Shown in pieces: positions 9,541 to 49,037 of a stretch of DNA of 64,000 nucleotides (position 1 is its first letter; every line of letters begins with the position of its first letter). The notes beneath the pieces are model-generated. The model was not told the DNA's origin, searched no databases, and saw nothing but the letters and a program-made list of their open reading frames with translations. The translations under genes were made by a program, and so were the position numbers. Source of the DNA: Prorocentrum cordatum (lineage: Eukaryota > Sar > Dinophyceae > Prorocentrales > Prorocentraceae); assembly GCA_963575745.1 (NCBI GenBank), contig CAUYUJ010017804.1:634839-698838 (forward strand), in the 5' to 3' direction.

Positions 9541-9584
9541 GTTTGCTTGTTTTGGTGGCCAGACTCGTGGGCAGGGGTCCTCCC

Positions 9585-12665: not shown

Positions 12666-12819
12666 TCCCCAAAGTGGGGGGGGCTTCTGCGGCCCAAAAG
12701 ATGATCGAATCGACACCGAATGTGGAATCACTTCCGATAGTTTCTTCGGGAGGCCATTTTGTAGATTTTGGGGCCTATTTGGAAGAACCGAAAACCATGT
12801 CGTGGCATGGCGCTGGAAA

Positions 12820-12957
12820 TAATGACGCCAGCGCTCCAGCAGGAGCACGATTCGGAACGACCGGAAGCGCGGAAATGACGCCAACGCTGCAGCGGGAGCA
12901 CGATTCGGAACGAGCGGTAGCCCGAAATGCGGCCAACGCTTCAGCGAGAGCAGCATT
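12820..12957. repeat. 52-bp tandem repeat, about 2.6 copies
   Basis: Units start at 12821, 12873 and 12925 (AATGACGCCAGCGCTCC, AATGACGCCAACGCTGC, AATGCGGCCAACGCTTC), each followed by GAGCACGATTCGGAACGA in the first two copies. Confidence 0.85.
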
Positions 12958-13479
12958 TTGATAAAAACAAAAAAACAAAAACCTAAGCGAAAACACAACT
13001 CCCGGGAATCCTGTAAAAAACCGGTACGCGGAGGGGAGCCAGACATTCCCCGGATGCCACCAGGGGAGAGAGGAGACAGAGTAGTATTTATTTTTGGTGT
13101 CATTGTGGAAGGGCGTCCAGAGGCGGAGGGGGCGGGGGAGGGGACCGGGGGAGAGGGAAGCGATGGTGGGGATGGGCAGGCGAGTGGGATGGGGAGCACG
13201 CAGACTGAAGGAATCCGCAGCGCATTCCGTCAATGGCCACCGAAGGTGGGCCTGGACCTTCGGCCCAGGCCAAGCGCTCGCTCGGCGCAAGCACCAAGAG
13301 GCCCACCAGACGTGGCAAGATGACGGCAGGGAAAGGGGGAGTTTGGAGTCGAGAGGGAGCTGGAACAGCAGCAGGGGATGGCAGTGGAACCAGGGGACCA
13401 ATGCGCGACGGAGAAAGGGGCGGGACAGCAGCCGTGGTATTTCTCCCACGCGTCGCCCTCGTGCCCCTCCGTCGCCCCC

Positions 13480-13575
13480 TCTCCTTCTTCTTCTCCTCCT
13501 CCACCTCCTCCTCCTCCTCCTCCTCCTCCACCTCCTCCTCCTCCTCCTCCTCCTCCTCCTCCCCCTCCTCATTCT
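13480..13575. repeat. (TCC)n tract
   Basis: CTC/TCC trinucleotide run. ORFs across it are repeat translations. Confidence 0.95.
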
Positions 13576-13759
13576 CGCATTCGTCGTCCCCCTCCTTCAC
13601 CCCCGGGCCTTCTCCTTGTTCGCTCTATGCGCCTCCTCGGCCAGTTTCTGCCGCTCCTGGCGTGCCCACCGCTCTCTCGGCGGGACAAGAACGGCGAGCA
13701 CGAGGGGAAAAGAAGAATGAGCATGTTTTGCTTTGAGCTCCACGCCCGGCTCCGCCTGT

Positions 13760-13970
13760 TAGGCAGGCATGAAGGAGCACGAGGAAGAAGATGAGGAGGA
13801 TAGAAAGGAGGAAGAGGCGGAGACACAGGAAGAGGGTGGACAGGATGAGGGAGGATGGGAAGGGACGCAGACGGGGAATGAGGAGGGAAGCAACAATACA
13901 TGGGAAGTTCCAGGGAGGCAGGAAGAGGAGGCAGGAGGAAGAGGAGGAGGAGGCGGCAGTGGGGGTTGAC
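13760..13970. repeat. Purine-rich GAG/AGG low-complexity tract
   Basis: Nearly all A and G on the plus strand, with irregular GAGGAA words. Confidence 0.8.
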
Positions 13971-14139
13971 CTGTTGCTCGATGCGTCCTGCCACGAGTGC
14001 TGGCGCGCCTTGCGTGCTCTGCGCGCGTCGCACATCTGAAGCGCCTGCAATAAGTGTGTTAACTGCGACGAAGGCCCTCACGATGACCTTGCCTGAGGGA
14101 AAGCCTCAAGCAGAGTAACTTGGGGCTGGTAGGGAAGAG

Positions 14140-14515
14140 GGGTTCGGATCCCCGTCGGCGCAAACACAGATGTGACGAGCACCGCCGTACCTCAAACACA
14201 CAATTGTGATCGAAGGTAATTAACTACCCAACAACACCGCACCTGTAACCCAAGACCGTGGTCCGAGGTCCCCGTCAACGCCAAAATATATGTGAAGAAA
14301 CCAACCGGAACTGTGAAACTACATAGCGGCACAAGAATACCCGAGACGAACACCAACTTTGGTGAGAGGTCCCCGTCGGCGCAACAATACCCGTGAAGAT
14401 CACCATCGTACGCGTGAACCAACATTGCGGTGAGAGGTCCCCGCCAGCGCAAGGATACCTGTGACGAGCACCAACTGCGGTGAGAGGTCCCCGTCGGCAC
14501 AGAAATACTGGCGCT
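14140..14515. repeat. Degenerate tandem repeat with GAGAGGTCCCCGTCGGCGCA core
   Basis: The core recurs near 14146, 14265, 14362, 14432 and 14482, each followed by a TACC-GTGA-GA-CACCA segment. Unit length varies from about 50 to 110 bp. Confidence 0.75.
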
Positions 14516-15200
14516 CCAACGTTCCTGGCGCACCCTGTCCGCATAGCGCACCCGGCGTGCGCATCAATATTGGTCCGAAGTGGCTGCCCATCGGATGGCA
14601 ATCGCTACCTCTGCTGAGTCTCAGGTGAATTGTGTAATGGGAGGACGTGTGGGAATGAACGAGACAGCCTGCGGCGTTCATGTCGGTAACTTGATCCGCC
14701 GCACTCCTCCCCATTCCCCTCATCCGCCCTCCCCTCCCATCTCTCCCTGCCACTTCCCCTCCGCTCAGTCTCCCCCGATTTCCTCCTCCTCCTCCTCCTC
14801 CTCCTCCTCCTGCTTCCTTATCCTTCTTTCTTCCGCCTTCTCTATCCATCTTCCTCCTCCTCGCCCCTGCTGCGCCCCTGCTGATACCCTCATCGTGAGC
14901 CATGCCTGGACCACCTGCACCACCGCCGTGAACTACCGGATTAAATGCCGGTACCGAAGCGTAGACTCGCGACCATCATGTTCCAAGGGTTATCCTGGCA
15001 ATGGCCTGTAGTAGCTGGCTCCTCATCGAATCCGCGCTTTACTGTGTGCACACCTGCTGCAATATGTTCCGTTTCATGCTAGCTAGCAGCGCAGCACCAC
15101 GATTGGAGAGAAAAACAACTTCGGCTTCGTGCAATTCCAGAGCTTCGATGTTGCCGCGTGAGGACCTTTCGACAGCGGAACAGCGCAGGGCCCTGCACGA
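14516..15200. other. No gene recognised; contains a (TCC)n run at about 14776-14812
   Basis: CT-rich stretch plus unique sequence. No ORF has a recognisable domain. Confidence 0.4.
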
Positions 15201-15203
15201 AAG

Positions 15204-15560
15204 CTAGGAGGCTGCACTGCAAGCTTCGTCACCCCCTTCACCACTCGTCTCTCGCACCTTGGTTACCGTCTGCTTTGCCACCTCCTCTTTCCTTCCCGTA
15301 TGGGCAGGCCGACCTGCATCAAAATCGGACCTTCCACACGCCTTTGCAAACACCTCGTGGACCGTGGCCCAACGATGGCTGTCCTTTCTGATGCAGCCAA
15401 TTTCGAATAAACACCAGAATGAGGCCCAAACAAACAGCGCCGGAAAACCGCACCGCCTCACCGATGCCCAACGAGGAGGCAAGAGCCCCCTCGCTACGAA
15501 AGCTCCGGAAGCGCGCCCCGGGATCCTCCTCGCGGACGCGGCGGGTGCATGACCCTGCGT
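15204..15560 (-). CDS. Possible gene fragment with a FWCLFEIG motif
   Basis: The C-terminal part of a minus-strand ORF (full ORF 15204-15809) reads FVWASFWCLFEIGCIRKDS, HEVFAKACGRSDFD and GRKEEVAKQTVTKVRE, more protein-like than its surroundings. A WC-FE motif recurs in several dinoflagellate signalling-type proteins, but this fragment is too short to place. It could equally be a chance ORF. Confidence 0.2.
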   Translation of the reverse strand, partial: TQGHAPAASARRIPGRASGAFVARGLLPPRWASVRRCGFPALFVWASFWCLFEIGCIRKDSHRWATVHEVFAKACGRSDFDAGRPAHTGRKEEVAKQTVTKVRETSGEGGDEACSAAS

Positions 15561-16140
15561 CCCCGACAGCCCTGGCGACTGCATCCCCAGAGATCCAATG
15601 TCCTGATTTTTCCAATGCGCGGTCCCAGGAAGTCTCGACCCACTCCCCAGGACCGGTTTCTCATCCTGAGTCGTTCTTTGACGGTCCCGAGGCCCGGCGA
15701 GGGCCCCTAGGAGCTGAAATGTGCGAAAGAACTCCGTCTTGATTTTTGTCCATCCGTTGGATCTCTGGGTCGGCGCCGACCCAGACGTCTTCGGCCTGGG
15801 CGGGGGCACGGACAGCGACGGCCACGTCCCTCAGAACTGCGGCCCTGCCTCGGCAGCGTCGACCTCCGACGCGCCGGCCCTCCTGGGCGGCGGCTCCTCG
15901 GGAGCCCTCGGCCCTGCCACCGCGGCGTGGGGTGCCGCAGCTCGTCCAGCAGCGACGGCGAGGCGGGAGCCCTGGCGGCCACTCGCCTGCCAACTCCTGC
16001 CCCGCCCGCTGGGGCAAGGACCGTGCCAGGAGGGACGTCCGGCACGGTGGCCACCAGGGCGCCCATGCCTGGCCCGCTCTCCCGGGCGGGAGCCGAGGCC
16101 AGGAGACACGGCCAGTCCAGGTCCACACGCTGCGACGGCA

Positions 16141-17097
16141 CGTGCAACAGGCGCCGCCCCGCGGCCGCGGCCCCGCCCCTGCAGCGGCGAGCTCCCCGGC
16201 CTCGCGGAACGGAAGCGGCAGGCTCAAACAGACGGGCTCTTCCCGAACGCTGTCGCCGGCCCGAGGGCCGCCACGCTGAGCGGCGACAGGCCGCCTCAGC
16301 CCAGGCCGGCCCCGCCCCGCCCGCAGCAAGCGGCTGAAGCTGACGCCCGACAGGCACCCACGCTGGCGCGGCAAGGAGCTGCACCGCTCGGCTCGTGGGT
16401 CAGGTCCGCGGCATCCGGGACGACGCCGCGCATCAGCAAACCGAGCGGCAAGAATTGGTCGAACGTCTCTGGGCCACTCAGGCCGCATCAGCTAGTGTGC
16501 GGGCTGTTGCGAGCCCCACCGCAGCCCTCGCCGCTGCCGCCGGCGGCAACAGGCCGACCGCCCGATCACAGCCACGAAACCAAACCGAGGCCCCCGAGCT
16601 CGTCTGGCGGGCCCTCGGCCGCAGCGCGGACCACCTCATCCGCCGCTGCCCCGCGCCCACTTCGCTGAATGTGCCCACGTCGCTGCGTCTTTCACACCAC
16701 GCTGTTGGCACACGCCAGCAGCACCTGGGCTGGTCGCCGTGCCCCTGTGCGCACCCTGCCTGGCACTCCGAGGGAAGGGAACTCCCCCAGAGCTGGGGGG
16801 GCCGCTTTGCCCCAACGCTGGGGTGGCCGGGCTTGGCCCTCCCGCCACCGTCCCGGCGTTCTGTGCCCCAGGGCTGGACCTAAACGGTGTTTTGGCGATT
16901 TCGTGGGCCGTTTTCGCTTCGACTTCGTTTTGCGGTGGAGGCGGATTGAAGACAAAACGAGGGAAAACGAGAACTAAACGAAAACGACAAACACCGTTCA
17001 GGTTCAGCCCTGCTGTGCCCCTCCCATCCCTTGGCGGGCTCGCGCAGCGCCTGTCTGGTCTGCGCGCCGCCGCTCGGCGCGTCGTCCGCGTCGTCAG
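16141..17097. repeat. Repeat block B, copy 1
   Basis: About 957 bp, nearly identical to 23208-24116 apart from about 50 bp missing from the second copy just after its start. It carries the MITE at 16869-17012 and abuts block A copy 2 at about 17096. Confidence 0.92.
16869..17012. mobile_element. hAT-like MITE with 8-bp TSD, copy in block B1
   Basis: A 144-bp element with terminal inverted repeats. The left end reads CAGGGCTGGACCTAAACGG and the reverse complement of the right end reads CAGGGCTGAACCTGAACGG, both continuing TGTTT (22 of 24 matching). It is flanked on both sides by CTGTGCCC (16861-16868 and 17013-17020). An 8-bp duplication and a CAGGG terminus are hallmarks of hAT transposons. 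It has no coding capacity, so it is non-autonomous. Confidence 0.88.
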
Positions 17098-18052
17098 GCC
17101 CCAAGCGGGTCCAGGAGGCCTCTGGAGGCTCCAGGATGCTCCAAGAGGCCGCAGGAGGCCCCAGGAGGCCACAAGAAGCGCCAGGAGGCACCAGGAGGCC
17201 ACGGAAGGCACCAGGAGGCCCCAAGATGCCCCAGGAGCAGGAGGCCTCAGCAGGCCACAGGAGTGGCTCCAATCCCATGTATTGTACGTATGTCCCTACA
17301 GATTGGGACCCCCCTGGAGAACGAATCCTTTTTGTGCTTTACGTATGCTTCTATAGATTGAACTCCCCCTGTGCATCCAATTAACTGAATTACGTATGTT
17401 CCAAAAGGTTTGGCAAACGACACTTCAGAAGGCCCAACTGCTGCTCGACAAAAAAGGTTGGACACTTCAGATTCCGTGTGCCGACTGCTGTGAGCGACGA
17501 AAGCTTGCTGGACCCAGCTCCTCGCTGAATCACCGCAGAGAAGGACGAATTGCTGCTTGAACGGCACTGGGGGCCGCTGGGGACGTACGCAATGCCCTGA
17601 GCTTCCTGTGTTCATGCGTTCCCGTTGTCATAGGTATCGTAATGACAGCGCTGTCGGTCTGGTTTCCGGGGCCTATCGGGGGTCTTCAAAATCTGTCGTG
17701 ACCATCTGGGCGCGCCTTGCGGCTCGGTGGAGGCCCTCATCGACAGAGGAATTACCCTGGAAATGCGTCTGGGAACATGCTGCCACCTTGCGGTGTCGCT
17801 CTTTCCGCCGCGTAGGCCCACGGCTGGACTCGACCACCGGACCCACACAGAAATTGCGCAGCAAGCGAGTGAACGAACAACGCGCGGCCAAAGTACACAA
17901 CGATGTGTTAGCGGCCATTTTCTCACAGGAACCTCCGAACGTCACGAGGGGAAGAGGCTTTCAACTGCATGAGTAGCAGCCTCCAGTGATGCCCGCCTGA
18001 AAACACTGCGCGCAGAACGCAGTTTGTGAATACTGTCTATTCAGTGCGCCAC
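17096..18052. repeat. Repeat block A, copy 2
   Basis: Near-identical partner of 9709-10671, here joined directly to block B. Scattered substitutions and small indels (for example, missing bases near 17380 and 17632) show independent decay. Confidence 0.92.
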
Positions 18053-18284
18053 ATGCTGTGAGCGACGAAAGCTCCTGCTGATGCCCACGGGGGCAGCACG
18101 CGCTGCCGAACCAGGCAATCAGGGACGCCGCTGCGTGGTCGAAGGCCAGGCAAGAGGGCGCTCTTGTTTACCACAGAAAGCTCGGCTACACAAACTGTTC
18201 CCCAACCGTCCTCGTCCGTTTGAAGAAACAACGCCCCGCATTCTCCGTCCTTCCTCCTCCCCCTCCTCCATCATCGTCATCACC

Positions 18285-19100
18285 CGTTTCAGCACACCCC
18301 TCACACGTTTCGTGGCCCCAGAGGGAGCTCCACCGAAGGCCCCAGTGCCACCGCCCGCATGCGTCACCCACACCCATTTCGGCACAACACCCTCTCAAGT
18401 TTCGTGGCCCCATAGGGAGCTCCACCGAAGGCCCCAGTGCCACCGCCAGCATGCGTCATCCACACCCTTTGCAGCACACCCCTCACATGTTTCGTGGCAC
18501 CGTAGGGAGCTCCACCGAAGGCCCCAATGGCACCGCCCGCATGCGTCACCTACACCCTTTTCGGCACACCCCTCACATGTTTCGTGGCCCCATCGGGAGC
18601 TCCACCGAAGGCCCCAGTGCCACCGCCCGCATGCGTCACCCAAACCAATTTCGGCACACCTGTCACATGTTTCGTGGCCCCAGAGGGCGCTCCACCCAAG
18701 GCCCCAGTGCCACCGCCCGCATGCGTCACCCACACCCATTTCGGCACACATGTCACATGTTTCGCGGCCCCATCGGGAGCTCCACCGAAGCCCCCGGTGC
18801 CACCGCCCGCATGCGTCACCCACACCCATTTCGGCACACCCCTCACACGCTTCGTGGCCTCCCAAGGAGCTCCACCGAAGGCCCCAATGGCACCACCCGC
18901 ATGCGTCACCCACACCCATACCGGCACACCCCTCACCGTTTCGTGACGTGGCTCCATAGGGCCCTCCACCGACGGCCCCAGTACCACCGCCCGCATGCGT
19001 CACCCACGCCCATTTCGGCACACCCCTCATACGTTTCGTGGCCCCATCGGGAGCTCCACCGAAGGCACCAGTTGCTGATCGCATGCGTCACCCACACCAT
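18285..19100. repeat. 90-bp tandem repeat, about 9 copies
   Basis: CATGCGTCAC anchors occur at 18358, 18450, 18540, 18630, 18720, 18810, 18900, 18993 and about 19083, mostly exactly 90 bp apart. Each unit carries TTTCGTGGCCCC, GGGAGCTCCACCGAAGGCC and CACCGCCCGCATGCG. Because 90 is a multiple of three and the unit lacks stops, several frames on both strands are open with a 30-residue period. A host gene is not supported. Confidence 0.93.
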
Positions 19101-19790
19101 CCCCTTCATACCCGTCCTGGGGTCGCTGCATCGTGGGTGTGCCAGTGTCGCGAAATCCTACCAATCAGCGACAAAAGGCTGCCGACAAAATTAGAGCTGG
19201 GCCAAGAGGTCCGTTCCAACGGCAACCCAGGGGAGCCATAAAACTGACTACATGCCTCGGAGGAAATAGCGAACACTCATGCCACATTCATCTGTCAACG
19301 CCTCCCCCTACCCCCAATCCTCCCCCCAATGTTCAAAGTTGGCGGTGGGTCTGATGAGTTGCACCTCGACAGCAGTCTCCCCTGCGCGTACCAACTTTGA
19401 GTTTGGGGGGGAGGGGGAAGGTTCAGTAATTGTTGCTTCCCTCGTCCGTATTGTAACCTACTCGCCACCCCCAAAATCCCCAGATGATCAGGGTTCCCAT
19501 CCCCCGACGTCTCGTCGGCCCCAGGGCTCGGCAGCGCAAGAACAGGCGCGCGGGTCGTCGCTGCTGGTAGTTGCACAGCACGAGGGTGGGAGGGAGGAAG
19601 CACGAACGCGGAGGGCGGAAATAGGAGGAACGAGGGAAGGGACCGGTGCAAAAATGTGCACCACCATTGCCAACGACTAATTGGCAAGACTCTGGTTGAG
19701 AAATCCCTGTATGTAGAAGAGACTTGCAACAGCATGAATAGCTCGGCTGCGCAAACTTTGGATATCCTCATTGATACTACCTTTGGAGCA
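19101..19790. other. Unique sequence 3' of the fucosyltransferase gene; nothing recognised
   Basis: Only short ORFs. A CCCCC-rich patch at 19305-19330 and a G-run at 19405-19420 stand out; no domain was seen. Confidence 0.4.
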
Positions 19791-19792
19791 AC

Positions 19793-21214
19793 TCATTCCT
19801 CGAACACGGTCGGCCTCTCATCTTGTTCATGCCTCCGGCCAAAACTGAAGATGCGAGGGCATCTGCCGTTGCGCTGTTCGCACATGCCATAATACAGAAA
19901 CCTTGAGAACGAGCTCTCCGTGTTACCGACAAAGAAATTACAAGCGCTCATGAGGCGGATGGACAACAACCATGACAACATGTCCCCAGAAGTGGCCGCC
20001 GAGTATCCAAAGTCGCTGCTTCCAATGGAGCCTGTATCTTTGTAAAAGTCTGACAAGCTGTTGAGCGGTGTGCTCGGGGGCACGGTATGGATGATGGCCC
20101 GTCGAGAACCCTTCGCCACCGCGATGATGTCAGCGTCGTCGGTCATCAGAAATATTAGCGGAATTTTCTTGCTCCGAGAAGCGTCTGTCAGCTGAGGCTT
20201 GTCCTCCATCATCTTAAGCGCCACGTCTAAATAGTCGTCGAAGCTCTTATTGAAGCCTCCAGCGATGGTATCGTGCTCTTGTATCCAATACGGTGTGAGC
20301 TTGTCCCCGTGGCGGACATGGATCGCCGCGCAAGCGGGGCCTGTCCCCGACGCAGGCCACGCTTGGTTCTTGGAACGCCACTCTGCTTCACGGCGGGCGA
20401 TCTCGTTTCGTGTCCTCGCGTTCTGACGGAAGAAGAGCATCTGCCACATCACATGAAGGTCGCCGACACCAAGGCCGTCAAATGGCTTGGACAACCGGTG
20501 TCGGAACGGCACAGCCATATCAACGTTACCATTCACCAAGTTCTTCCCCCAGTGTGCACTGTCCATCGTGCAGCTGGACGTCGGCAAGAAAAAGCATTCC
20601 TGCCTCGTCATGGGGGAGACTGTGCTAGTTGTCATGGGGGATACGTCCACCTCCCCACAGAACGGACTGAAATACTCCGCGGGATGACTGTCCAGACGTG
20701 GATCAGACCACACAGGCAGAAAAGCAGTTCGTTTCTGGGAATCTCGAACCTCGCTGACCCACTGCTCAAAACCGAAATAGAAGTCTTCTTCCGTGGCCTG
20801 CCCGACCCAGCCGCTGGAGGTCATGACGGTGGCGCGGCACCTGTTAGGATCTTTCGCATCGGCAGGGAACTGCAACGAGTCCAGCAAGAGAAAATGGTGG
20901 AAGGCCTTGTCCGGCACGCGCCGAAGGACACACTTCGACTTCCGCCAGTCCCCACTGCAATGGCTGAACCTCCACTCCGCGCGCGGGATCAGAAATTCGT
21001 CGATCGCTTCGCTTATCTTCTTGAGCGGCCCTGTTACCTCCGTGCGCGTCACGTTGCCTGCGGTGGCAGCGCGCAACTGTCCGACATAGTCGGGTTCGCC
21101 GTCGCGGGGCGAGTCTCCCAACCTCAGCGCCGCACAGAAGAGGTGGTGCGTCACCAGAAGCTGCAAGAGCAGAGCGCAAGACAACCATGAGGCTGGATGT
21201 CCGATGGCCGCCAT
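19793..21214 (-). CDS. Fucosyltransferase, alpha-1,6 / FUT8-like (GT23 family), intronless
   Basis: 473 residues, ATG at 21214, single uninterrupted ORF. Residues 9-30 (WLSCALLLQLLVTHHLF and flanks) form a hydrophobic N-terminal anchor or signal, as expected for a type II Golgi enzyme. The catalytic region includes CAAIHVRHGDKL (295-306), corresponding to the HVR-DK donor-binding motif of FUT8 and related fucosyltransferases; FDDYLDVALKM (325-335); IFLMTDDADII (354-364), a typical TD-D motif; and SWLLSIRLMSACNFFVG then TESSFSRFLYYGM (414-444), corresponding to the FUT8 strand and helix with a conserved SS-R. Expected role: transfer of fucose from GDP-fucose to N-glycan or protein in the secretory pathway. 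Paired cysteines at 86, 95, 186 and 207 fit a lumenal protein. Length is slightly below animal FUT8 (about 575), which has extra coiled-coil and SH3 parts absent here. Acceptor specificity cannot be read from sequence. It is the clearest host gene in the window. Confidence 0.85.
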   Translation of the reverse strand: MAAIGHPASWLSCALLLQLLVTHHLFCAALRLGDSPRDGEPDYVGQLRAATAGNVTRTEVTGPLKKISEAIDEFLIPRAEWRFSHCSGDWRKSKCVLRRVPDKAFHHFLLLDSLQFPADAKDPNRCRATVMTSSGWVGQATEEDFYFGFEQWVSEVRDSQKRTAFLPVWSDPRLDSHPAEYFSPFCGEVDVSPMTTSTVSPMTRQECFFLPTSSCTMDSAHWGKNLVNGNVDMAVPFRHRLSKPFDGLGVGDLHVMWQMLFFRQNARTRNEIARREAEWRSKNQAWPASGTGPACAAIHVRHGDKLTPYWIQEHDTIAGGFNKSFDDYLDVALKMMEDKPQLTDASRSKKIPLIFLMTDDADIIAVAKGSRRAIIHTVPPSTPLNSLSDFYKDTGSIGSSDFGYSAATSGDMLSWLLSIRLMSACNFFVGNTESSFSRFLYYGMCEQRNGRCPRIFSFGRRHEQDERPTVFEE

Positions 21215-21720
21215 CAGGCGGTGCTCTGCACGGATAAAATATGTATGAGGTGTGTGGTGCGATTCGGGGGGCGGACCCTGCGGCGCCTTGGGCTGGGATC
21301 GCTGCGGACGTTGCTGTTCGCGTGTTGTTATATTATTGCTGGTGCTGTCTTCCTCATCGTTGCTGCTTGGATTGTCGTTATGGTTGTCAGGGCAACTGCC
21401 GTTCTTATCGCTATGTTGTTATACGCTGGTGTCGTCATGGCTGATCATGTGTTTGCTGTGCTGCTGTTATGGCTGTCACCATCGTTGTGATTGCCGTCGT
21501 GCGTTTTGCCGCTATTCCTACTGCTTCAATGTTTGTTGTATAATGTTGGGATTGCACTGTGCTTTCGTTGATGCTATGATTGCTCCGGCTCATAGTACTA
21601 TTGCGAGTTCCCCCATACGTACCCTGAATGGGGTTCTTGTTATTCCCCATATCCAAAGGGTGGGGTTCTTGAAATTACTCCGACAGCGCTAGGATTCTCA
21701 CCTTCTCCCTCCTCCTCCTC
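21215..21720. other. Upstream region of the fucosyltransferase gene; no feature recognised
   Basis: T/G-rich sequence with a hydrophobic plus-strand ORF (21197-21490) that overlaps the fucosyltransferase start and looks compositional. No spliced-leader relic was seen here. Confidence 0.35.
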
Positions 21721-21732
21721 CTCATCATCATC

Positions 21733-22030
21733 TTGTCGTGTTATAGTATGTCATGGCATGCTATGTTATGTTATGCTATGGTGTGGTATGTTATTCTCCA
21801 TATCCAAAGGATGGTGTTTTTGTTATTACTCCGACCGCTCCGAGGGTCATATAATCCCTCCTCCCTCCTCCTCATGCTATGTTATGTCACGACATGCTAT
21901 GATATGGTATGTTATGGTGTATGTCATGTTATGCTATGGTATGGCATATTATGGTTTGAAATGGTATGCGATGCTATGATATGGTAGATTATGATGTGTT
22001 ATGCTATGGTTTGCTATGATACGGTATGGC
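21733..22030. repeat. TATG-rich short tandem tract
   Basis: Irregular pentamer/hexamer words such as TATGC, TATGG and TATGT, interrupted by unique pieces including CATATCCAAAGG copies at about 21649 and 21798. Confidence 0.75.
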
Positions 22031-22049
22031 ATGCGTCGTTACGTTAGCG

Positions 22050-22275
22050 GGCTTCAGCACCACCAAGGGGGAGACGCCAAGGGGTATTGCACCCCTCCGC
22101 TCGCGCCAAAATGGCGGGGATGTCTCGAGCGGTTTGCCTGTTTCTCGGCCCAACATCCTCCGCTTTCGGAGCAGATTTGGAGGATGCCTCGAGCGAGGCG
22201 CTCAGTTTCGCCAAAGGGGGGCCTGATTTTGAGGATGCCTCGAGGGGTTTGCATATTTTGCTGGCCAGACTCGTG
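22050..22275. repeat. Family R repeat, dispersed copy
   Basis: Same elements as the array at 9011-9540 (GGGTATTGCACCCCTCCG, CGCCAAAATGGCGG, ATGTCTCGAGCGG, GGCCCAACATCCTCCGC), followed by the same GGCCAGACTCGTGGGCA exit into a decamer tract. Confidence 0.85.
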
Positions 22276-22283
22276 GGCACGGA

Positions 22284-22411
22284 GGCCACAGGTGGTACCA
22301 GGAGGTATCAGGATGCCACAGGAGGCCACAAGAGGCCCCAGGAGGCTCCAGGAGGCCCCAAGAAGCCCCACGAGGGTCCAGGAGGCCCCAAGAGGCCCCA
22401 GGAGCAGGAGG
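22284..22411. repeat. Decamer minisatellite (CAGGAGGCCC type)
   Basis: Continues directly into block C copy 2, as the equivalent tract at 9585-9895 continues into block A. Confidence 0.8.
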
Positions 22412-23209
22412 AATTATAGGCACAGGAGCGGCTCCAATCCCATGTGCTTACGGCTCCTATAGATTGGGCCTCACCTGGAGCACGAATCCTTATTGTGTTA
22501 CGTATGTGTCTATAGACTGTTGTTTTCATGCGTTTCCTATCCTAAGTGTTTTATGTATGCTCCTAGTACGAATCTAGGTGCTTTTTCGTGTGTTCATGTA
22601 GATTGCCCTTCTCCTGCGGCTCCACTTCGCAGTGTTTCATGTGCGTCTGTTCCTATAGATTGGGCCGCTGAGGCCTCAAGATGGCCCAAAGAAAGATCGC
22701 CCAAGAGTGCCTCTCGAAGGGCCCGCAGACACCCCGAAACGGTCCTAAAAGGCTTCCAGGAGCGCCCCAATAGTGCCAAGGAGCAGATGTCTCTGGCTCT
22801 GGAGGGGCAGCGCTAATCAGAGCCAAGATGGCCCTAACAGGGCCCACAAGGTCCCCAAGCCGAGAGCGCCCAAACTGCCCCGAGAACTGTTACAGTAAAC
22901 CTCAAACGAACTCCAGGATCAAAATGTCCGCACTCATAATTAATCCACCCCTCGGACCCGCGTAGAAACCAGTCACTGCAATTCCTACCTCAAAATTGCG
23001 AATTTCGTGAACTTATCCACTCTTCCAGGGATCAGCGGAATGATGTCAGCCCCTTGACTCCGCCCGCCCACTGGGCTGAGGGGTGTGTGGGACGCAACTG
23101 GAAGAACTTCCTTCAAGGCTTCAGCCCTCCCTAATCCCCCGCAGACGGACTCCGCCATTCTGCCGCCCGCTGCGGCGGCTGACCTGGGCCCCAAGACGGC
23201 TTCCAAACG
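22384..23209. repeat. Repeat block C, copy 2
   Basis: Partner of 10739-11617 with small deletions (near 22566 and 22817). At CTTCCAAACG (about 23201-23209) it switches directly into block B copy 2. Confidence 0.9.
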
Positions 23210-24116
23210 TGCAGCAGGCGCCGCCCCGCGGCCGCGGCCCCGCCACTGCAGCGGCGAGCTCCCGAACGCTGTCGCCGGCCCGAGGGCCGCCACGCTGAGC
23301 GGCGACAGGCCGCCTCAGCCCAGGCCGGCCCCGCCCCGCCCGCAGCAAGCGGCTGAAGCTGACGCCCGACAGGCACCCACGCTGGCGCGGCAAGGAGCTG
23401 CACCGCTCGGCTCGTGGGTCAGGTCCGCGGCATCCGGGACGACGCCGCGCATCAGCAAACCGAGCGGCAAGAATTGGTCGAACGTCTCTGGGCCACTCAG
23501 GCCGCATCAGCTAGTGCGCGGGCTGTTGCGAGCCCCACCGCAGCCCTCGCCGCTGCCGCCGGCGGCAACAGGCCGACCGCCCGATCACAGCCACGAAACC
23601 AAACCGAGGCCCCCGAGCTCGTCTGGCGGGCCCTCGGCCGCAGCGCGGACCACCTCATCCGCCGCTGCCCCGCGCCCACTTCGCTGAATGTGCCCACGTC
23701 GCTGCGTCTTTCACACCACGCTGTTGGCACACGCCAGCAGCACCTGGGCTGGTCGCCGTGCCCCTGTGCGCACCCTGCCTGGCACTCCGAGGGAAGGGAA
23801 CTCCCCCAGAGCTGGGGGGGCCGCTTTGCCCCAACGCTGGGGTGGCCGGGCTTGGCCCTCCCGCCACCGTCCCGGCGTTCTGTGCCCCAGGGCTGGACCT
23901 AAACGGTGTTTTGGCGATTTCGTGGGCCGTTTTCGCTTCGACTTCGTTTTGCGGTGGAGGCGGATTGAAGACAAAACGAGGGAAAACGAGAACTAAACGA
24001 AAACGACAAACACCGTTCAGGTTCAGCCCTGCTGTGCCCCTCCCATCCCTTGGCGGGCTCGCGCAGCGCCTGTCTGGTCTGCGCGCCGCCGCTCGGCGCG
24101 TCGTCCGCGTCGTCAG
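23208..24116. repeat. Repeat block B, copy 2
   Basis: Partner of 16141-17097, ending at the same CGTCAG. About 50 bp are missing near 23258 relative to copy 1. Confidence 0.92.
23888..24031. mobile_element. hAT-like MITE, copy in block B2
   Basis: Same terminal inverted repeats and the same CTGTGCCC flanks (23880-23887 and 24032-24039) as the copy at 16869-17012. The insertion therefore predates duplication of block B. Confidence 0.88.
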
Positions 24117-24154
24117 CGCCCGTTGACGGCGCCGTCGGTGCCGCAGGGGCCCGA

Positions 24155-42704: not shown

Positions 42705-42719
42705 GTCTGATCTGGCCGC
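42705..42719 (+). repeat. Left target-site duplication of the LINE
   Basis: GTCTGATCTGGCCGC, identical to 49023-49037, directly preceding the element. Confidence 0.9.
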
Positions 42720-42720
42720 T

Positions 42721-42742
42721 TCCGTAGCCATTTTGGCTCAAG
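42721..42742 (+). other. Relict dinoflagellate spliced leader (DinoSL)
   Basis: 22 nt matching the DinoSL consensus (D-CCGTAGCCATTTTGGCTCA-AG) at every position, with T at the variable first base. DinoSL is added by trans-splicing to nuclear mRNAs and is not normally next to genes in genomic DNA, so this copy came in through reverse transcription of a mature mRNA. Confidence 0.97.
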
Positions 42743-42842
42743 ATTTGGTTTCCCTGTGGAAACAAGTGGATGCCGCTAGTCCGCGGCTAGACCCCAGCTT
42801 TCATCGCACCGCTGCGTGAGCCGCCCCAGGCGACGCAGCTTC

Positions 42843-44086
42843 ATTTTGGCTCCTCGGAGCAAGACGACGAAACCGCCTGGCCAGCTCCAGGTTCGGGAAC
42901 CGGGATGGCACTACGAGCCGTGGGTACAGATTGGGCGTGGCGGCGGGTGCTCAGCGTGCTCGTCGTGGTGACTAAACTGTCTGCTCGTGTGGCCATTGGA
43001 CATGGAACGATCTCTTGGCCAAACGCAAATGGTTGTGCGTCGGGTGCCAGGACATCTGCGACCCTGCACGCGCCCCTCTTCGTGCTCATGCGGGACAGTC
43101 ACCAGCTCTCCAAGACGGTTATACCTCTGCACCCCCCGCCCATGCCAAGGGGCGGTGGAGGAAGGGCCAGGCAGCCGTCAGCCTGCCGCCCGACACCCTC
43201 ACAATGGTCAGGGAGATCGCTGGCGCGCTACCTTCAGCACAGGCCCAGAAGTTGCTGGCGCCCTTCGTCCCCATGGAGACCGCCGCCAAGGCACCACGGT
43301 CGACCCAAGCGGCTTGGAACCATGCTCAGCAGCATCGCAAGTCGGTTGCGGACAAGCTTGAGCGTGCCATGGCGAAGCGTGTGGAGTTGGATCGCCAGGT
43401 CACGGAGTCCAACCTCACTCTCGAGCGGCTCATGGAAAATGACATCCGTGCTGAGAAGGAGTTGGAACACGCTACCAGAGCTCTGGCTGCAGGTGTTCTC
43501 AAGGAGGAGGCCACCTCTAACGTCATCAACATCTCGAATCTCTTCAAGGACAGTGCTGATGAGCTCACGCTCGACTTCGGCGACCAGATTGACCTCTCAG
43601 GCCCTGCCTTCTCGGATGAGGACCGCAACCAGTTCGCGGCGTTCCAGAAGGAGCAGTCTTCCAAGGTGGCCGCTCTTCTTTACGCTGCACTTACAAAGGT
43701 CATGGACCAAGCTAATGCTCATCACACAGAATACCTCAAGCGCATGGGCAAGCTCCGCAAGCGTCGCAAGCTCGGCGATGCAGCGGCAGCCGCCTGTGGG
43801 GCCCCACCTGAGCCTGGAGCAGCGCAGGCCGATGCGGGTGGCTGCGCCTCTCCCCCAGCAGGCCCTGGCCCTGCGGCTGGAGGAGGCGCCCCCCCTAGCG
43901 CGGGCCCCCGCCGCTGGTGGAGGGCCCCCCGCGGCGGCGGCGGGCGCGGCTGCGGCCAGCTCGGCCCAGGGCTCTACGGCGCAGGTGGGGTCCGACAAGC
44001 AGGCCAAGGTTGAGGCCCTCAGGAAGGACCTCCTGGCCAAGGCTCAGGCTAAGGCAGCCAAGGCTGAGGATGAGTCGAGCTCCTGA
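42843..44086 (+). CDS. LINE ORF1: zinc-ribbon-like and coiled-coil protein, frameshifted
   Basis: Recognisable protein spans three frames. HYEPWVQIGRGGGCSACSSW (about 42900-42960) runs to a stop. CSCGHWTWNDL and LCVGCQDICDP (about 42980-43060) then form a Cys-rich putative zinc ribbon. A long helical region follows: WNHAQQHRKSVADKLERAMA, LDRQVTESNLTLERLMENDI, FKDSADELTLDFGDQIDLSG. The tail is Ala/Pro-rich and shifts frame near 43800-43950 to end QAKVEALRKDLLAKAQAKAA with a stop at 44086. Small ORF1 proteins with nucleic-acid-binding and coiled-coil parts are typical of LINEs and package element RNA. The start codon is not certain because of the shifts. Confidence 0.65.
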
Positions 44087-44108
44087 TGGAGCCAGCGGCC
44101 AGGTGGCC

Positions 44109-45419
44109 ATGAGGCGGCTTCGACCGCCCAAAGGCTCGCCAAACCCGCCGAGTAAGCCCAAATCTCTATCTCTCGTGTATTCCAATATTTCAGTTTGGGA
44201 TCCCACCGCGCTTCGGTGGGTTCAAGAGTCCAAGGCAGATATCATTCTCTTCGTGGAGCACAGGCAGCGCCCTGTGAAGTTCCAAGCGATGGTCAAGAAA
44301 TTGCACAAACTCGGTTGGAAGGTTGTTCCTCAAGAGGCTCATCGTACTGATGCAGACGATTCGTCCTCTGGAGTCATGGATATTGCTCGTTCTCACCTGG
44401 GATGGTCTGGTTTGACGTATGCAGCTGGTGAATGGTTAGACGTCGGGACTTCACGCTATCTGTTGTCAACCCTGCGGCTTCGTCACGCCTCGCTCACCAT
44501 CGCGCCTGTCTGCCTCCACACCGTTGGGCAGCTTGGCGGCGACAACCTGAAGCTGCTCGCTGACCTGGGTGCGCACTTGTCTGCTGCTGGTGTTCCTGCT
44601 TTAATTGTCGGCGACTGGCAGGTGCCACAGGAGGAGCTAGAAGCCTCGGGTTGGCTGGAGCCTCTCGGCCTCATCCCTGTCTCGATGCCTGGGGTTTCGG
44701 TCACTTGCACCACGGTCACCACCAGTCGCATCGACTATGCCCTAGTGTCTGTGCCTTTTGCAGCCGCCTGCACATTCACTGGTCTTGTGCCTGTTCCGCG
44801 GGGCACTCACTGTGCGTTGGGCTTCAGCGTTGTGAGCACTCCTCGTAGCATCACTGTCTGGAAGGCCATGAGGCCTAAGGCGCCCCCCGTCAAGGACCTA
44901 GCTGGTCCTGTGATGTCATGGCCCCACCACCTCGCGCAAGCTGAGCTGCTGCAGCGCAGGCGGCCAGCGCTTCTCAGGTCTAATTACTATCAAGACACCT
45001 TGCTTCGCTTAGAGCATGACAATGCCGACGTGTCTCTCGCTCTAGGCCAGCAATTCTCAAGTTGGGTCCTCGCTGTCGAGCTTGAGGCTTTCTCTAAGTT
45101 GGGCCTTTCACAGGATTCGATGTTCCAGTATGTCGACCGCTGCCAGCAGCCGAGGCTCAGAGAAGTGCCTCTTATTGCCGTTCAGGTTGAAGGGCCATGC
45201 ATTGCGGATCGTAGTGCGAGGTGGTGGCAGTCTGTCTTTCTTCAGTTGTACCTGTTAATTCGGCCTGCTCCCGCTGACGCGGACCCGTCTGCCCCGCCTC
45301 AGCCCAAGCCTGCTTACGCTGCCCAGTACCGTGCGACCCTGGATTGGCTTTCCCAGCAGGTGCCCCCTGAGCCGTCGGACCCTTCGGACCCTGCGCAGAC
45401 TCGGCTCTTTGAGGTCTGA
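44109..45419 (+). CDS. LINE ORF2 part 1: EEP (APE-like) endonuclease
   Basis: Starts at ATG 44109 and ends with TGA at 45417-45419. EEP signature residues appear in order: SLVYSNISVWDP (Asn), ADIILFVEHRQRP (Glu), CLHTVG then ALIVGDWQVP (Asp), SRIDYALVSVP (Asp) and RGTHCALGF (His). The fold nicks the target DNA to prime reverse transcription. After the nuclease comes a helical linker (AQAELLQRRRPALLRSNYYQ) as in LINE ORF2 proteins. RT continues in a different frame after the stop, so a small indel near 45420-45455 broke the ORF. Confidence 0.82.
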   Translation: MRRLRPPKGSPNPPSKPKSLSLVYSNISVWDPTALRWVQESKADIILFVEHRQRPVKFQAMVKKLHKLGWKVVPQEAHRTDADDSSSGVMDIARSHLGWSGLTYAAGEWLDVGTSRYLLSTLRLRHASLTIAPVCLHTVGQLGGDNLKLLADLGAHLSAAGVPALIVGDWQVPQEELEASGWLEPLGLIPVSMPGVSVTCTTVTTSRIDYALVSVPFAAACTFTGLVPVPRGTHCALGFSVVSTPRSITVWKAMRPKAPPVKDLAGPVMSWPHHLAQAELLQRRRPALLRSNYYQDTLLRLEHDNADVSLALGQQFSSWVLAVELEAFSKLGLSQDSMFQYVDRCQQPRLREVPLIAVQVEGPCIADRSARWWQSVFLQLYLLIRPAPADADPSAPPQPKPAYAAQYRATLDWLSQQVPPEPSDPSDPAQTRLFEV

Positions 45420-45453
45420 CACGAGAGGCTTAGGTTAGTTAGTTCTGCTACCC

Positions 45454-47448
45454 ATGAGGACTTGCTTTTTGTACGTTGCAGAAGCCACCCTGGCCGCAGA
45501 CAAGTCGCATCGCTCAGCTCTTAAGGCGCATTCGGTAGCATGGCAGACGTGGCTTAAGCAAGCCTTGTATCGCTCTGCGGGTCCCGCCCACCGTCTCTGG
45601 AGGCCTCCTGTTGACTCCCTCCCAGAGAAAATCGGCGAATATGGACCATGCGCTACCGTGGCGCAAGTTTTAGAATTCGAGGCGGCAGCGTGGGCCAGCA
45701 CATGGCAGCAACATAGCTATGACGGTGCGAGAGCATCTCTGTCTGCGCTTCGGGTCGAGGCGCGATCCACTCCTCGGCCCGAGCCCATTTCGCTCGATCT
45801 GTTGAATCGCGCTCTGGCCACCATCCCCGACAAGAGGGGCCAAGGCATCGATGTTCTGGAGCCGCGCCTCCGCAAACAAGCCAGCGACGATGCCAAGCTG
45901 CGCCTGATCGTTGTTCTGCATTCCATCGAAGAGCAATTCGCGCTGCCATTTCAACAGCTGTTTTCCTTGATCGCTTTGTTGCCGAAGCCCGACGGCGGTA
46001 AAAGACCGATCGCGCTCCTCGGCTTGATGTATGTTTTGCTTCTTCGGATTCGCAAGACCCACATCTCTAGTTGGGACAAGAGAGCCCACGGCCCATGGGG
46101 CGCCACGGTGGGGGGCTCCGCCGAGGCTGCTGGCTGGATTGACGAATTAGAAACAAAACTTGCTATGCACTCTGGCTTCCTAGTGGGTGGTCTTCTCCTT
46201 GACATGAGGAAGTGCTATGACCAGGTTCGCCTTGAAGATTTAGTGGACGCGGCTGTTGCGCTCGGGTATCCTTTAAGGCTCCTGGTCCTGGCAGTAGATA
46301 TGTATCTGGGCGTGCGCCATCTGTCGATCGAAGGCGCTGTGCACACCGGCCTCAAGGCGCATGGAGGCATGCTCGCGGGCCGTGGCCAAGCGACCTCGTT
46401 AGCCCGAGCTCACCTCCACGAGCCTCTGGGCGTTGCTTATCAGTCGGTCGCTGGCCTGCGCCTGCGTGAGTGGGTGGACGATATCTCAGCTAGTCTTTTT
46501 GGCACTCACACTAGCATCGCCGCCACCTTTCCGGTGCTCCTCAGGGCCCTGTTGGTCAGCCTCAAGCGGCGGCGATGTGAGATTGCTGTTGGTAAATCGC
46601 ACCTGCTTGCGTCCTCGCCTGCGCTTCGTTCCACGCTCTCAGGGCTTGCTTCTGATCACCAATGCGCTTTTCGGGTTTCTCTGGCCGCTAGGGATTTGGG
46701 CCACGATACTTCGCTTAGCGCTCGTCGCACCGTGGCTGTTCGCAAGACTAGGTTTCAGAAAGGTAAGCACGCGACCGATGAGACTTCCAGTTTTCCAAGA
46801 CGAATCGCAGTGCTAACAAGCTCTTCTATCCCAATGCGTTCGCCAAGGCCACGTGGGCTCCAGAGATCCAGGGTGCGGCCCCATCGATGTTGCAGGGCCT
46901 CAGGGGCATGGCCAGAGCGGCCAGCAGGACACCACAGCGAGGAGCGTGCGCTACCACGGCTATGGACTTTTGGACTAGGTCATGATCCTGTGCAGATGTA
47001 TTATCGCAAGATTATCAAACCATGGTTCTCTAGGTCAGCTGGTAATTCATCGCTGCTGGCCCGTCTCAACCGTCACAGGCAGGCGTCGCTCGATACGGTT
47101 CGTCGGAGGTGGGCTTGGGTCCGAGGGCCTCTGGGAGCCTTCCAGGCCTCCATGATTTCCATCGGGTGGTCCTGTCCTTCTCCCTTCGAGCTTGTCTCCC
47201 CCTCTGGTGATCGGTGGGCTTTGCAGGTCGAGGGCCGAGGACCTCTGGGTCCCCTTGTAAACGCCTTCGACAAAACGATCGACGAGCGCCAGTGGCGGCA
47301 GGCCTCAGAACATCTCGACGGCAAAGGAATCGATGGTCCTGTTTCGTTGTTCCACGTTTGGGAGCTTGTTGCGTCTCTTGAGAAGGAAGGCCGTCGAGAT
47401 GTTGCAGCTATGGTTAGGGTCGTTGCTGCCAGGAGGCTACTGGACTGA
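45454..47448 (+). CDS. LINE ORF2 part 2: reverse transcriptase
   Basis: RT motifs in order: QLFSLIALLPKPDGGKRPI (fingers, about 45955-46010), motif A LLLDMRKCYDQV (about 46192-46227), motif B GLKAHGGMLAGRGQATSLA (about 46345-46405) and motif C REWVDDISAS with the Asp pair at 46477-46482. The usual YADD reads WVDD. Thumb and post-RT helices follow. Between about 46790 and 46980 the real sequence is in another frame (NKLFYPNAFAKATWAPEIQG), so two compensating indels are present. The frame then resumes to a TGA at 47446-47448. Confidence 0.85.
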   Translation: MRTCFLYVAEATLAADKSHRSALKAHSVAWQTWLKQALYRSAGPAHRLWRPPVDSLPEKIGEYGPCATVAQVLEFEAAAWASTWQQHSYDGARASLSALRVEARSTPRPEPISLDLLNRALATIPDKRGQGIDVLEPRLRKQASDDAKLRLIVVLHSIEEQFALPFQQLFSLIALLPKPDGGKRPIALLGLMYVLLLRIRKTHISSWDKRAHGPWGATVGGSAEAAGWIDELETKLAMHSGFLVGGLLLDMRKCYDQVRLEDLVDAAVALGYPLRLLVLAVDMYLGVRHLSIEGAVHTGLKAHGGMLAGRGQATSLARAHLHEPLGVAYQSVAGLRLREWVDDISASLFGTHTSIAATFPVLLRALLVSLKRRRCEIAVGKSHLLASSPALRSTLSGLASDHQCAFRVSLAARDLGHDTSLSARRTVAVRKTRFQKGKHATDETSSFPRRIAVLTSSSIPMRSPRPRGLQRSRVRPHRCCRASGAWPERPAGHHSEERALPRLWTFGLGHDPVQMYYRKIIKPWFSRSAGNSSLLARLNRHRQASLDTVRRRWAWVRGPLGAFQASMISIGWSCPSPFELVSPSGDRWALQVEGRGPLGPLVNAFDKTIDERQWRQASEHLDGKGIDGPVSLFHVWELVASLEKEGRRDVAAMVRVVAARRLLD

Positions 47449-47700
47449 AGAGAGACGGCATCTTGCCCAGCTTTCCCCGGATCCTATTTGTAGGCGTTGT
47501 AAGAGGGACCCAGAGTCCACTGTCCATCGAGTCTGGCAATGCATGTGCAACGACAGGTCTGCTTGCCCCGATGTAGTACAGTCGCAGCATCTGAGACATG
47601 CGGCCATCCAGGAGGCTAATGTTTTCAGTGTTTCTGGACGAGGGGGCTTATTCCCAGGGCGTGGTTCCGACTTCCTCCGACCACTATTTCTCGGCTGCTC
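47449..47700 (+). CDS. LINE ORF2 part 3: zinc-knuckle segment
   Basis: In the frame at 2 mod 3: HLAQLSPDPICRRCKRDPES then TVHRVWQCMCN, a C-x2-C-x7-H-x4-C arrangement typical of the region between RT and RNase H in plant and protist LINEs. It overlaps the RT frame's end and is joined to RNase H by another shift. Confidence 0.6.
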
Positions 47701-47739
47701 CGTGGCAAGCGGCTCTCGGGCCCCCTCGTCCCTGGATCG

Positions 47740-48624
47740 TTGCCTGGGGGCCTGTGCGGAACCGACGGCTCTGGGGGCCCTCTGGGGAAGTCACCTGGTT
47801 TAAGAAGGGTCGCCTTCGCGTTCGTTCGCATGGCCACTGGTGAAGAATTCGAGCGGGATTGCGCTGCCACAGGCGTCGTCGACCCTGAGCGGCAAACTGT
47901 TCCGCGTGCAGAGATTGTGGCTATTGTTGAGTGTGTTCGGTACGTCGACAGGGCTCAAGATCTGCACGTGGTCTCTGATCATGCTACTAAAATCAAGGCC
48001 TTCGCAGGTGGGCGCTCTCACACCTCTAAGTTGGCCAATTGTGATCTGTGGTGGGAACTCTGGGAGCTCCTCGACTCTCGTCCTGCCCCTTTTCGCCTGT
48101 CTCACATCCCCTCTCACCTCCTAGAGAACGCCAAGAAGCGTGAGCGTTTCCAGGATGTTGTTGATTTGGACCACGTTGGTCTGAACTCTCTGGCTGACAA
48201 ATTTGCTGATGATCGTGCGTCGGAGATTCAGGTCCCTCCAGATGTTGCCCGTGACCATAATTCGCTCGTGCTTCAGGCTTGCCAGATTTTGGCACGTCAT
48301 GCTGCTATCATTCGTGAGTGTGCCTCGCTTCGTGCCGACCCCGACACGCGACGGACCAAGGAACCCATCGACTATGTTGTTCGTCGGCGGCGGTGGCTCG
48401 CCGAGGCTGCCTTGTCAGCCTCCCATAGGTGGGTTTATGCCGATCAGGTGTGGAGGTGCGGATCCTGTGCCGTGGAGGTTAGGGACGGCGCCCCTTCCAT
48501 CCGTTCCAGGCTGCGCAGCCTGTGCCCTGCCTCTCTCGAGGAGGAAGGAGGGAGTGCGTCTGTGCGCGTTCCGTGTGAGCGGGGGGGGGGGGGGAGAAGC
48601 AAGCTGTGCATCGCCAATGGGTGA
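47740..48624 (+). CDS. LINE ORF2 part 4: RNase H domain
   Basis: RNase H catalytic positions in order: CGTDGSGGPLGKS (Asp, about 47758), TVPRAEIVAIVECVRYV (Glu, about 47912), LHVVSDHATKIKAFAGG (Asp, about 47965) and LNSLADKFADDRA (final Asp, about 48190). The domain degrades the RNA strand after first-strand synthesis and is found in I, Jockey-like and several protist LINE clades. A Cys-rich patch (WRCGSCAVEV) follows. The frame is lost at a 14-G run (48581-48594). Confidence 0.82.
   Translation: MPGGLCGTDGSGGPLGKSPGLRRVAFAFVRMATGEEFERDCAATGVVDPERQTVPRAEIVAIVECVRYVDRAQDLHVVSDHATKIKAFAGGRSHTSKLANCDLWWELWELLDSRPAPFRLSHIPSHLLENAKKRERFQDVVDLDHVGLNSLADKFADDRASEIQVPPDVARDHNSLVLQACQILARHAAIIRECASLRADPDTRRTKEPIDYVVRRRRWLAEAALSASHRWVYADQVWRCGSCAVEVRDGAPSIRSRLRSLCPASLEEEGGSASVRVPCERGGGGRSKLCIANG
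48581..48594 (+). repeat. Poly-G run causing a frameshift in the LINE
   Basis: G14. The protein signal leaves the RNase H frame here and continues in the frame at 0 mod 3. Confidence 0.85.
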
Positions 48625-48941
48625 AGCCCGCCAGGCCATTGCCCGAGCGGTGCGACGCCCTCTGGAGATCCTTGGGGCTCGATCCCACGCCGTCTAGGGT
48701 CGAGTCCTGGGTCGCAGGGAAGCCAGTCCATCAGCCCTACGTGCTCTGGCGCAAGGCCTCGATTCATGTCTGTGGAGCGTGTGGGGCCTGGGCCACCTCG
48801 AGGCCCGTTTCCTTGAAGGAACGGTGCCCAGTGGGCGAGTTCGGTCCTCATGCCTTCACGCAGGCTCGCCTCGTTGTCTTGCAGCAGCTGTGTAAAGGTC
48901 TGCCGCCGTCTAGGAAGCCCAGTGCGTGGCCTGATGTGTAA
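48595..48941 (+). CDS. LINE ORF2 part 5: C-terminal zinc-finger region
   Basis: After the poly-G run: VHRQWVKPARPLPERCDALW, then KASIHVCGACGAWATSRP and LKERCPVGEFGP (Cys pairs of a putative zinc finger), ending SRKPSAWPDV with a TAA/TGT region just before the 3' end of the element. Confidence 0.6.
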
Positions 48942-49022
48942 ATGTTCTGCCCTGGCCTCCAGTCCCAGGCAAACTCTTTGCCCTTGGAGCCTGCTCGTCA
49001 ACGGTGCACTGTAAACAAATAA

Positions 49023-49037
49023 GTCTGATCTGGCCGC
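49023..49037 (+). repeat. Right target-site duplication of the LINE
   Basis: GTCTGATCTGGCCGC, identical to 42705-42719, directly after the element's AAACAAATAA end. Confidence 0.9.

Follow-up and report, generated by a model that had tools for sequence, protein, structure and literature searches.

What kind of RNA does a dinoflagellate retrotransposon copy when it moves, and where does the 5' end of that RNA come from? The question is raised by a long interspersed nuclear element (LINE) of Prorocentrum cordatum that begins with the dinoflagellate spliced leader (DinoSL; SL, spliced leader). It lies in a stretch of 64,000 nucleotides (nt), here called the window (assembly GCA_963575745.1, contig CAUYUJ010017804.1, forward strand), which corresponds to C16955:634839-698838 of the host genome (G000; 4.13 Gb in 21,875 contigs). 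Read from DNA, the element is very probably a dinoflagellate retrotransposon without long terminal repeats (LTRs), carrying endonuclease/exonuclease/phosphatase (EEP), reverse transcriptase (RT) and RNase H domains, whose RNA intermediate would be a host-processed mRNA.

The window element and its edges

The element is 6,303 bp long (42720-49022) and lies between exact copies of a 15-bp target sequence. The 6.3-kb LINE with a perfect target-site duplication (TSD), proposed in an earlier note on this DNA, was thereby confirmed (15/15 positions; Table 1). Under a first-order model the chance of finding this 15-mer (GTCTGATCTGGCCGC) in a given 3 kb is about 9e-6. Among control 15-mer pairs of the window (separated by 4-8 kb, with a dinucleotide entropy no lower than 2.9, and excluding the large repeats between 9.8 and 24 kb) there was one other single pair, at 49360 and 56982, with neither a leader nor an element edge. 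The first 23 bases inside the left target copy had been described as a T plus the full DinoSL, and they are exactly that, with 22/22 leader positions matched. No other DinoSL is present in the window at up to three mismatches, and none occurred in 100 shuffles. The leader and the two target copies together make 52 bases that all agree, which is why divergence since the insertion is probably below about 5.6% per site (simple model).

An SL gene or pseudogene at 42721 was considered and rejected, as no splice donor follows the leader. In the window, ATTTGG comes directly after the last exon base of the leader, whereas an SL RNA gene in another locus (L003) continues past that base with its donor (CTCAAG/GTACGC), and the window sequence is thus a spliced leader and not an SL gene. 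The L003 gene, complete with splice donor (L003:3600-4700), occurs in a contig filed under a Dehalococcoidia genome; the sequence adjoining its DinoSL presumably represents an 18S rRNA gene, which it resembles, and the placement is probably contamination.

Copies of the family at their 5' edge

If the RNA intermediate is a leader-spliced mRNA, full-length copies should therefore start with DinoSL. A DNA search of the genome with the 558 bases that follow the leader (42743-43300, leader excluded) scored 40 of 269 candidates, so that copy counts are lower bounds, and gave the window and at least 39 further places, one of them matched by an additional short piece. Sequences of 181-201 bases were fetched around each 5' edge. 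The edge is reached in 35 of the 39, and in all 35 DinoSL or a piece of it adjoins the element, with the joint shifted by no more than a few bases between copies: the leader is full-length in 33 and a piece of 15-16 nt in two. The exact 21-mer core is present in 21, up to three ungapped mismatches are found in 32, and L085 has a 1-nt deletion. The remaining four were set aside, their matches starting at query base 31 (L061), 270 (L063), 161 (L083) and 28 (L082, beside N); L063, on contig C17153, starts inside the element without a leader and is truncated or rearranged.

The earlier note had placed the 5' limit of the element at the leader, and in agreement with this no conserved non-SL sequence was found in the 55 nt upstream of the leader in the window subfamily (the window and eight copies). 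The score per base there is 0.39, compared with 0.80 downstream, and a single 9-nt upstream match (E 0.12) is at chance level. At least seven TCC-type hexamers occur in the last 30 bases before the leader in 22 of the 27 copies that share only the first ~100-160 bases, and in none of the eight of the window subfamily. Judged by these edges, the pattern generalizes beyond the window copy.

Flanks and tails

A search with the 3' end gave at least 40 matches (40 of 101 candidates scored), and eight copies with 5' and 3' edges on the same contig and strand were joined with the window copy into a set of nine (C17153 left out). When all 5' flanks were compared with all 3' flanks, each copy's own pair was the best in its row (9/9), and the sum over pairs was reached in none of 20,000 permutations. 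Apart from the window, the flanks match over 18/18 bases in C67 (of which AAA may be tail), 14/14 in C825, 13/13 in C5814, 13/14 in C13815 (0/56 control positions as good) and 11/12 at the junction in C4446. Full-length copies beginning with DinoSL next to a TSD, for which the earlier note suggested a search, are therefore present elsewhere (35/35 edges, 9/9 flank pairs).

Short A-rich tails, such as GTAAAAAAAAA, GCAAAAA and AAAA, end seven of the nine copies; an early doubt that poly(A) was missing at the 3' end was dropped once the 3' ends of other copies had been compared. By their coordinates five of the eight copies are about 6.1-6.3 kb long, and the others, of 7.6, 8.0 and 13.7 kb, likely contain later insertions. 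The leader of C3780 is cut, and the target reads GGCCATTT where the leader has GCCATTTT; base pairing between target and cDNA end may therefore have produced the 5' joint of this copy.

The family thus unites the features of a LINE (RT and an APE/EEP-type endonuclease, no LTR, TSDs of variable length in 9/9, A-rich tails in 7/9) with that of a DinoSL retrocopy, in which the copied transcript starts with a leader exon trimmed at the splice donor. The leader at 35/35 edges and the A-rich tails support the proposal that the template was a mature, trans-spliced mRNA.

Tandem leaders

Elements with two leaders, which the earlier note proposed to look for, were found in four of the 35 copies (L074, L088, L090 and L089). 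The first three read leader plus CCATTTTGGCTCAAG or nearly so, and are cut at a CCGTAG/CCATTTT junction, while L089 reads leader plus TAGCCATTTTGGCTCAAG. This junction, as described for recycled mRNAs in a passage of PMC3229502, arises when the AG at position 7 of an existing leader accepts a new one; a tandem-SL gene is an alternative source of tandem leaders mentioned in PMC6616646. These four copies indicate that elements re-enter trans-splicing. With a single leader in 31 of 35 copies, the acceptor in most cycles is probably the AG that ends the leader, so that the old leader would be replaced by a new one without trace.

Other loci headed by DinoSL

The exact DinoSL 21-mer occurs 14,218 times in the genome (reversed control, 0). 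Of the first 30 sites listed (L004-L033), inspection by eye placed 22 directly behind (TCC)n or (GGA)n and one behind (TCA)n. This could point to microsatellites as preferred targets or, in the case of TCC, to a pyrimidine tract being selected as part of the acceptor. Twenty of the 30 were chosen by hand and refetched with about 8.8 kb of downstream sequence (left out: L009, L011, L014, L015, L019, L024, L025, L028, L029 and L031). An RT homologous to that of the window element was found in eight of the 20, always on the strand of the leader and never opposite (tblastn, E up to 1e-4). Pfam matched RVT_1 in four more (L034, L035, L036 and L037) and a weak EEP alone in L049. In L034 a single frame of 1,868 amino acids (aa) opens from the leader and has both domains above cut-off (RVT_1 1.2e-15, Exo_endo_phos 1.4e-8); in L044 a 2,785-aa frame from the leader has RNase H above, and RT and EEP below, the cut-off.

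The tract before the leader recurs 5.6-5.8 kb downstream in L034, L035 and L036. Compared with 78 control positions per locus, the downstream repeat of the upstream flank was equalled by none in ten loci and the window (most of those repeats being microsatellite), by 2-5 in L036 (5), L041, L042, L044 and L050, and by 33, 26 and 11 in L040, L046 and L049, where it is no better than controls; L045 and L048 had no such repeat. The SL-headed pattern is wider than the window family.

One further locus, L053 (G000:C3:691367-701366), holds not a LINE but an SL-tagged WD40 gene copy. This copy spans about 1.3 kb and is A-rich at its end; 15 bp of the upstream flank recur at +1318 (0/78 controls). Its ends resemble those of the LINE copies, and the LINE machinery is for that reason a candidate for the agent of dinoflagellate retroposition. 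The suggestion that this machinery retroposes other SL-tagged mRNAs receives indirect support from this single case.

Two exact DinoSL also precede a 254-aa open reading frame (ORF) in a viral-collection contig (L001:1936-2913). The ORF lies between AT-rich genes, one encoding a GT41 glycosyltransferase, and is itself less AT-rich. We take the AT-rich genes to be giant-virus-like; the ORF has the appearance of a dinoflagellate mRNA whose copy was inserted in a viral genome, though the assembly may be chimeric.

Proposed route of movement and its alternatives

The DNA itself shows that copies open with a leader and are flanked by target duplications; most of those read have A-rich ends, and some copies have tandem leaders. 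The element would be transcribed, by read-through or from the TTT(G) motif of the leader, and trans-splicing would give the RNA the 22-nt DinoSL as its 5' end, while its 3' end would bear a short A tail. The endonuclease and reverse transcriptase, presumably the element's own, would copy this RNA into a staggered nick; copying would run to the cap or near it, leaving target duplications of about 8-18 bp. Judging from the ends, target-primed reverse transcription is the most likely mechanism. The terminal AG of the leader may then serve as acceptor for the next round, so that the leader is mostly renewed and does not pile up. TTT(G) has been proposed as a promoter in retrogenes (PMC6050394, section 7) and, if this is valid for the LINE, each new copy would have a promoter within it.

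Leaders at the 5' edges, matching flanks in 9/9 copies and A-rich tails in 7/9 are the grounds for concluding that the family moves as trans-spliced RNA. The element might instead have captured the leader a single time and since then encoded it in its DNA, as a fixed part that is transcribed with the rest rather than re-added in each cycle, and one leader at the same place in 31 of 35 copies is what such a fixed 5' end would give. However, four copies have a second leader before the old one, three of them cut at the known acceptor AG, and so new leaders do get added. The same 5' end is shared with other SL-headed elements and with the WD40 gene copy, and the exact core in four of the eight copies that match over 558 bases at 75-89% identity fits renewal but is no proof of it. 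A fixed leader is accordingly considered unlikely. That RT reached the end of the LINE RNA and jumped to SL RNA or to the 5' end of another mRNA, as LINE-1 does with other RNAs, is highly improbable, given that the window leader is cut exactly at the splice donor and that, tandem leaders apart, the joint to the element varies in position by no more than a few bases across 35/35 copies.

DinoSL is common enough for an SL gene or relict to have come to stand beside an unrelated repeat, by chance or as an assembly artefact; with 35/35 edges and 9/9 flank pairs on different contigs this is hardly credible. A-rich tails, TSDs of such lengths and an endonuclease together with RT are hallmarks of LINEs. 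Tails of this kind in 7/9 copies, TSDs of 8-18 bp and an endonuclease and RT encoded by the family argue against LTR elements (Ty1/copia) as the source of the enzyme that retroposes SL-tagged mRNAs, with the LINE itself a passenger. Copia elements are highly expressed and are favored in print (PMC6050394, section 7), but such a role seems very unlikely.

Several observations weigh against movement as trans-spliced RNA, or weaken the evidence for it. The window copy is broken and coding-dead, and is therefore not autonomous now, and the trans-splicing step itself is deduced from DNA. The TSDs of three copies are weak when taken alone (C3780, 8/8; C1492, 9/10; C1148, 15/16 in a repetitive, ATG-rich flank), and the best alignment for C4446 is a neighboring repeat off the junction. 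Extra bases, from 0 to 7, separate target copy and leader (0 in C67 and C3780; 1 in the window; 2 in C13815, C5814 and C1492; 3 in C4446; 6 in C1148; 7 in C825), so the T of the window copy is nothing special. C1492 ends in a run of C, and C1148 is without a visible A tail. Among the 20 other loci, the choice by hand leaned to microsatellite flanks, Pfam covered selected ORFs of 15, no RT or EEP family was matched in the ORFs taken from L038, L040, L045, L048 and L050, and the RT of L038 is 7.8 kb away from the leader, perhaps as part of a different element.

Trans-spliced RNA as the form in which the family moves may be part of a wider scheme, which we hold with moderate confidence. DinoSL would be an obligate, self-renewing 5' end of dinoflagellate LINEs, supplied fresh in each cycle with a cap, an acceptor AG and perhaps the TTT(G) promoter, and the element would not have to encode a 5' end itself. 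A number of LINE families would follow this scheme, a good share of the 14,218 DinoSL would be LINE heads, and the same machinery would make SL-tagged retrogenes.

Coding content and annotation

The features of the element are given in Table 1.

Table 1. Annotated features of the LINE and its target site (window coordinates)
Feature	Position	Strand	Remarks
Left TSD, GTCTGATCTGGCCGC	42705..42719	+	Exact match to right copy
Extra T between target copy and leader	42720..42720	+	Other copies have 0-7 extra bases there
Complete DinoSL (22 nt), TCCGTAGCCATTTTGGCTCAAG	42721..42742	+	Exonic form, then ATTTGG; no splice donor
Conserved 5' box of the family	42743..42902	+	Most listed matches begin at query position 2, right after the leader
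Second, degraded SL-like stretch, CGCAGCTTCATTTTGGCTC	42834..42852	+	Tentative candidate for an older leader
ORF1-like open frame, 345 aa	42976..44013	+	No Pfam match
ORF2 N-terminal part, EEP domain	44070..45419	+	Exo_endo_phos E=0.008; ends at in-frame stop
RT region, other frame	45439..47448	+	RVT_1 E=0.0012; homologous RTs downstream of DinoSL elsewhere
zf-RVT-like stretch, frame shifted	47261..47803	+	E=0.053, weak
RNase H region	47620..48624	+	E=0.038, weak; RNase_H also in SL-headed L044 and in L052
Cys-rich C-terminal end of ORF2	48579..48941	+	Frame changes near run of 14 G; stop TAA
A-rich 3' tail, GTAAACAAATAA	49011..49022	+	Two further copies stop here too, with GCAAAAA and GTAAAAAAAAA
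Right TSD, GTCTGATCTGGCCGC	49023..49037	+	Exact match to left copy

The Pfam matches follow the order EEP, RT, zf-RVT and RNase H, all under curated cut-offs, and self-comparison of the window found no LTR at the element ends. The RT region contains WVDD, which we take to be motif C. In the protein database the EEP query gave a single relative, P0001 (from a public contig), which is 68% identical over 376 aa; the RT and RNase H queries gave none. Compared with P0001, the EEP-RT linker of the window copy has one stop and one frameshift, and further frame changes follow downstream, one near the 14-G run; some of these may come from homopolymer sequencing error. The full element with EEP, RT and RNase H that the earlier note described is therefore full in length and in the order of its domains, at sub-cut-off scores, but is not coding-intact.

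No relative was found in the viral collection with the RT, EEP and EEP-alignment queries, and the search of solved structures gave nothing useful. AlphaFold modelling gave poor results for the EEP and RT pieces (mean pLDDT 34.5 and 37.7). No DNMT domain was matched in the element, and no Rfam family, including the hepatitis delta virus (HDV)-like ribozyme; the lone match at E<1 was to an unrelated long non-coding RNA family under its cut-off. RNA folding gave z = -1.69 for the 5' untranslated region and -0.15 for the 3' end. The SL-like stretch at 42834 scores 24, a value reached by none of 544 other stretches (two score 23), and in shuffles by 0/1000 (150 nt), 1/1000 (658 nt) and 5/200 (whole element).

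Elsewhere in the window, positions 3-8690 of the minus strand hold an open frame of 2,896 codons in GC-rich sequence, with no Pfam match, and several large similar repeats lie at 9012-24121 (e.g., 16241-17101 and 23260-24121 at 99.8%). When the element was compared with the rest of the window by tblastx, the matches listed (at least 40) were short, lay in scattered frames and were not counted as homology.

Comparison with known systems

Among described LINEs, SymbioLINE-Dnmt of Symbiodinium is likewise from a dinoflagellate and has an upstream ORF and an RT, but it carries a DNMT, as the window element does not by domain search (PMC5890265); the main text of that paper contains neither 'spliced leader' nor 'splice leader', and one 'trans-splic'. 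The trypanosomatid L1Tc/ingi LINEs also live in a host with trans-splicing and polycistronic transcription, but their RNA is described in PMC4035085 as gaining a free 5' end by an HDV-like ribozyme, for which the window element gave no match.

Processed retrogenes of dinoflagellates with relict DinoSL (Slamovits and Keeling 2008, as covered in parts of PMC3229502, PMC6050394 and PMC12014239) are alike in having a genomic DinoSL before a copied mRNA, and in the tandem CCGTAG/CCATTTT junction. In the window family, however, the mRNA that was copied comes from a LINE that itself encodes EEP and RT, and the copies have target duplications on either side and, for the most part, A-rich tails. Section 7 of the review PMC6050394 calls the type of retroelement that mediates dinoflagellate retroposition unknown, with LTR elements favored. 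The copies described here are LINEs, which appear to retropose leader-tagged RNA of their own; with similar ends on one copy of a host gene, the question becomes directly testable.

LINE and LTR elements of parasitic flatworms resemble the window family in that pieces of a genomic leader are tied to mobile elements (597 discarded loci), and integration of trans-spliced retrotransposon RNA has been suggested for such loci (PMC12582326). There the leaders are partial and, in the passages concerned, noted in passing, whereas the window family has a full leader at 33/35 edges and matched flanks in 9/9 copies. The claim to novelty is lowered because these partial-leader elements were noted earlier. 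Among the papers listed by searches of the open PMC literature (subscription papers being outside this scope), the titles, abstract openings and selected passages yielded no LINEs with a full leader at the edge together with target duplications. Retrogenes with SL relicts and flatworm LINEs with pieces of the SL have been reported before, and what is new is the union of LINE features with those of DinoSL retrocopies, read at both edges. It offers a clear case of a mobile element that would take its 5' end from host trans-splicing, and lets DinoSL serve as a marker by which LINE insertions of full length can be recognized in huge genomes.

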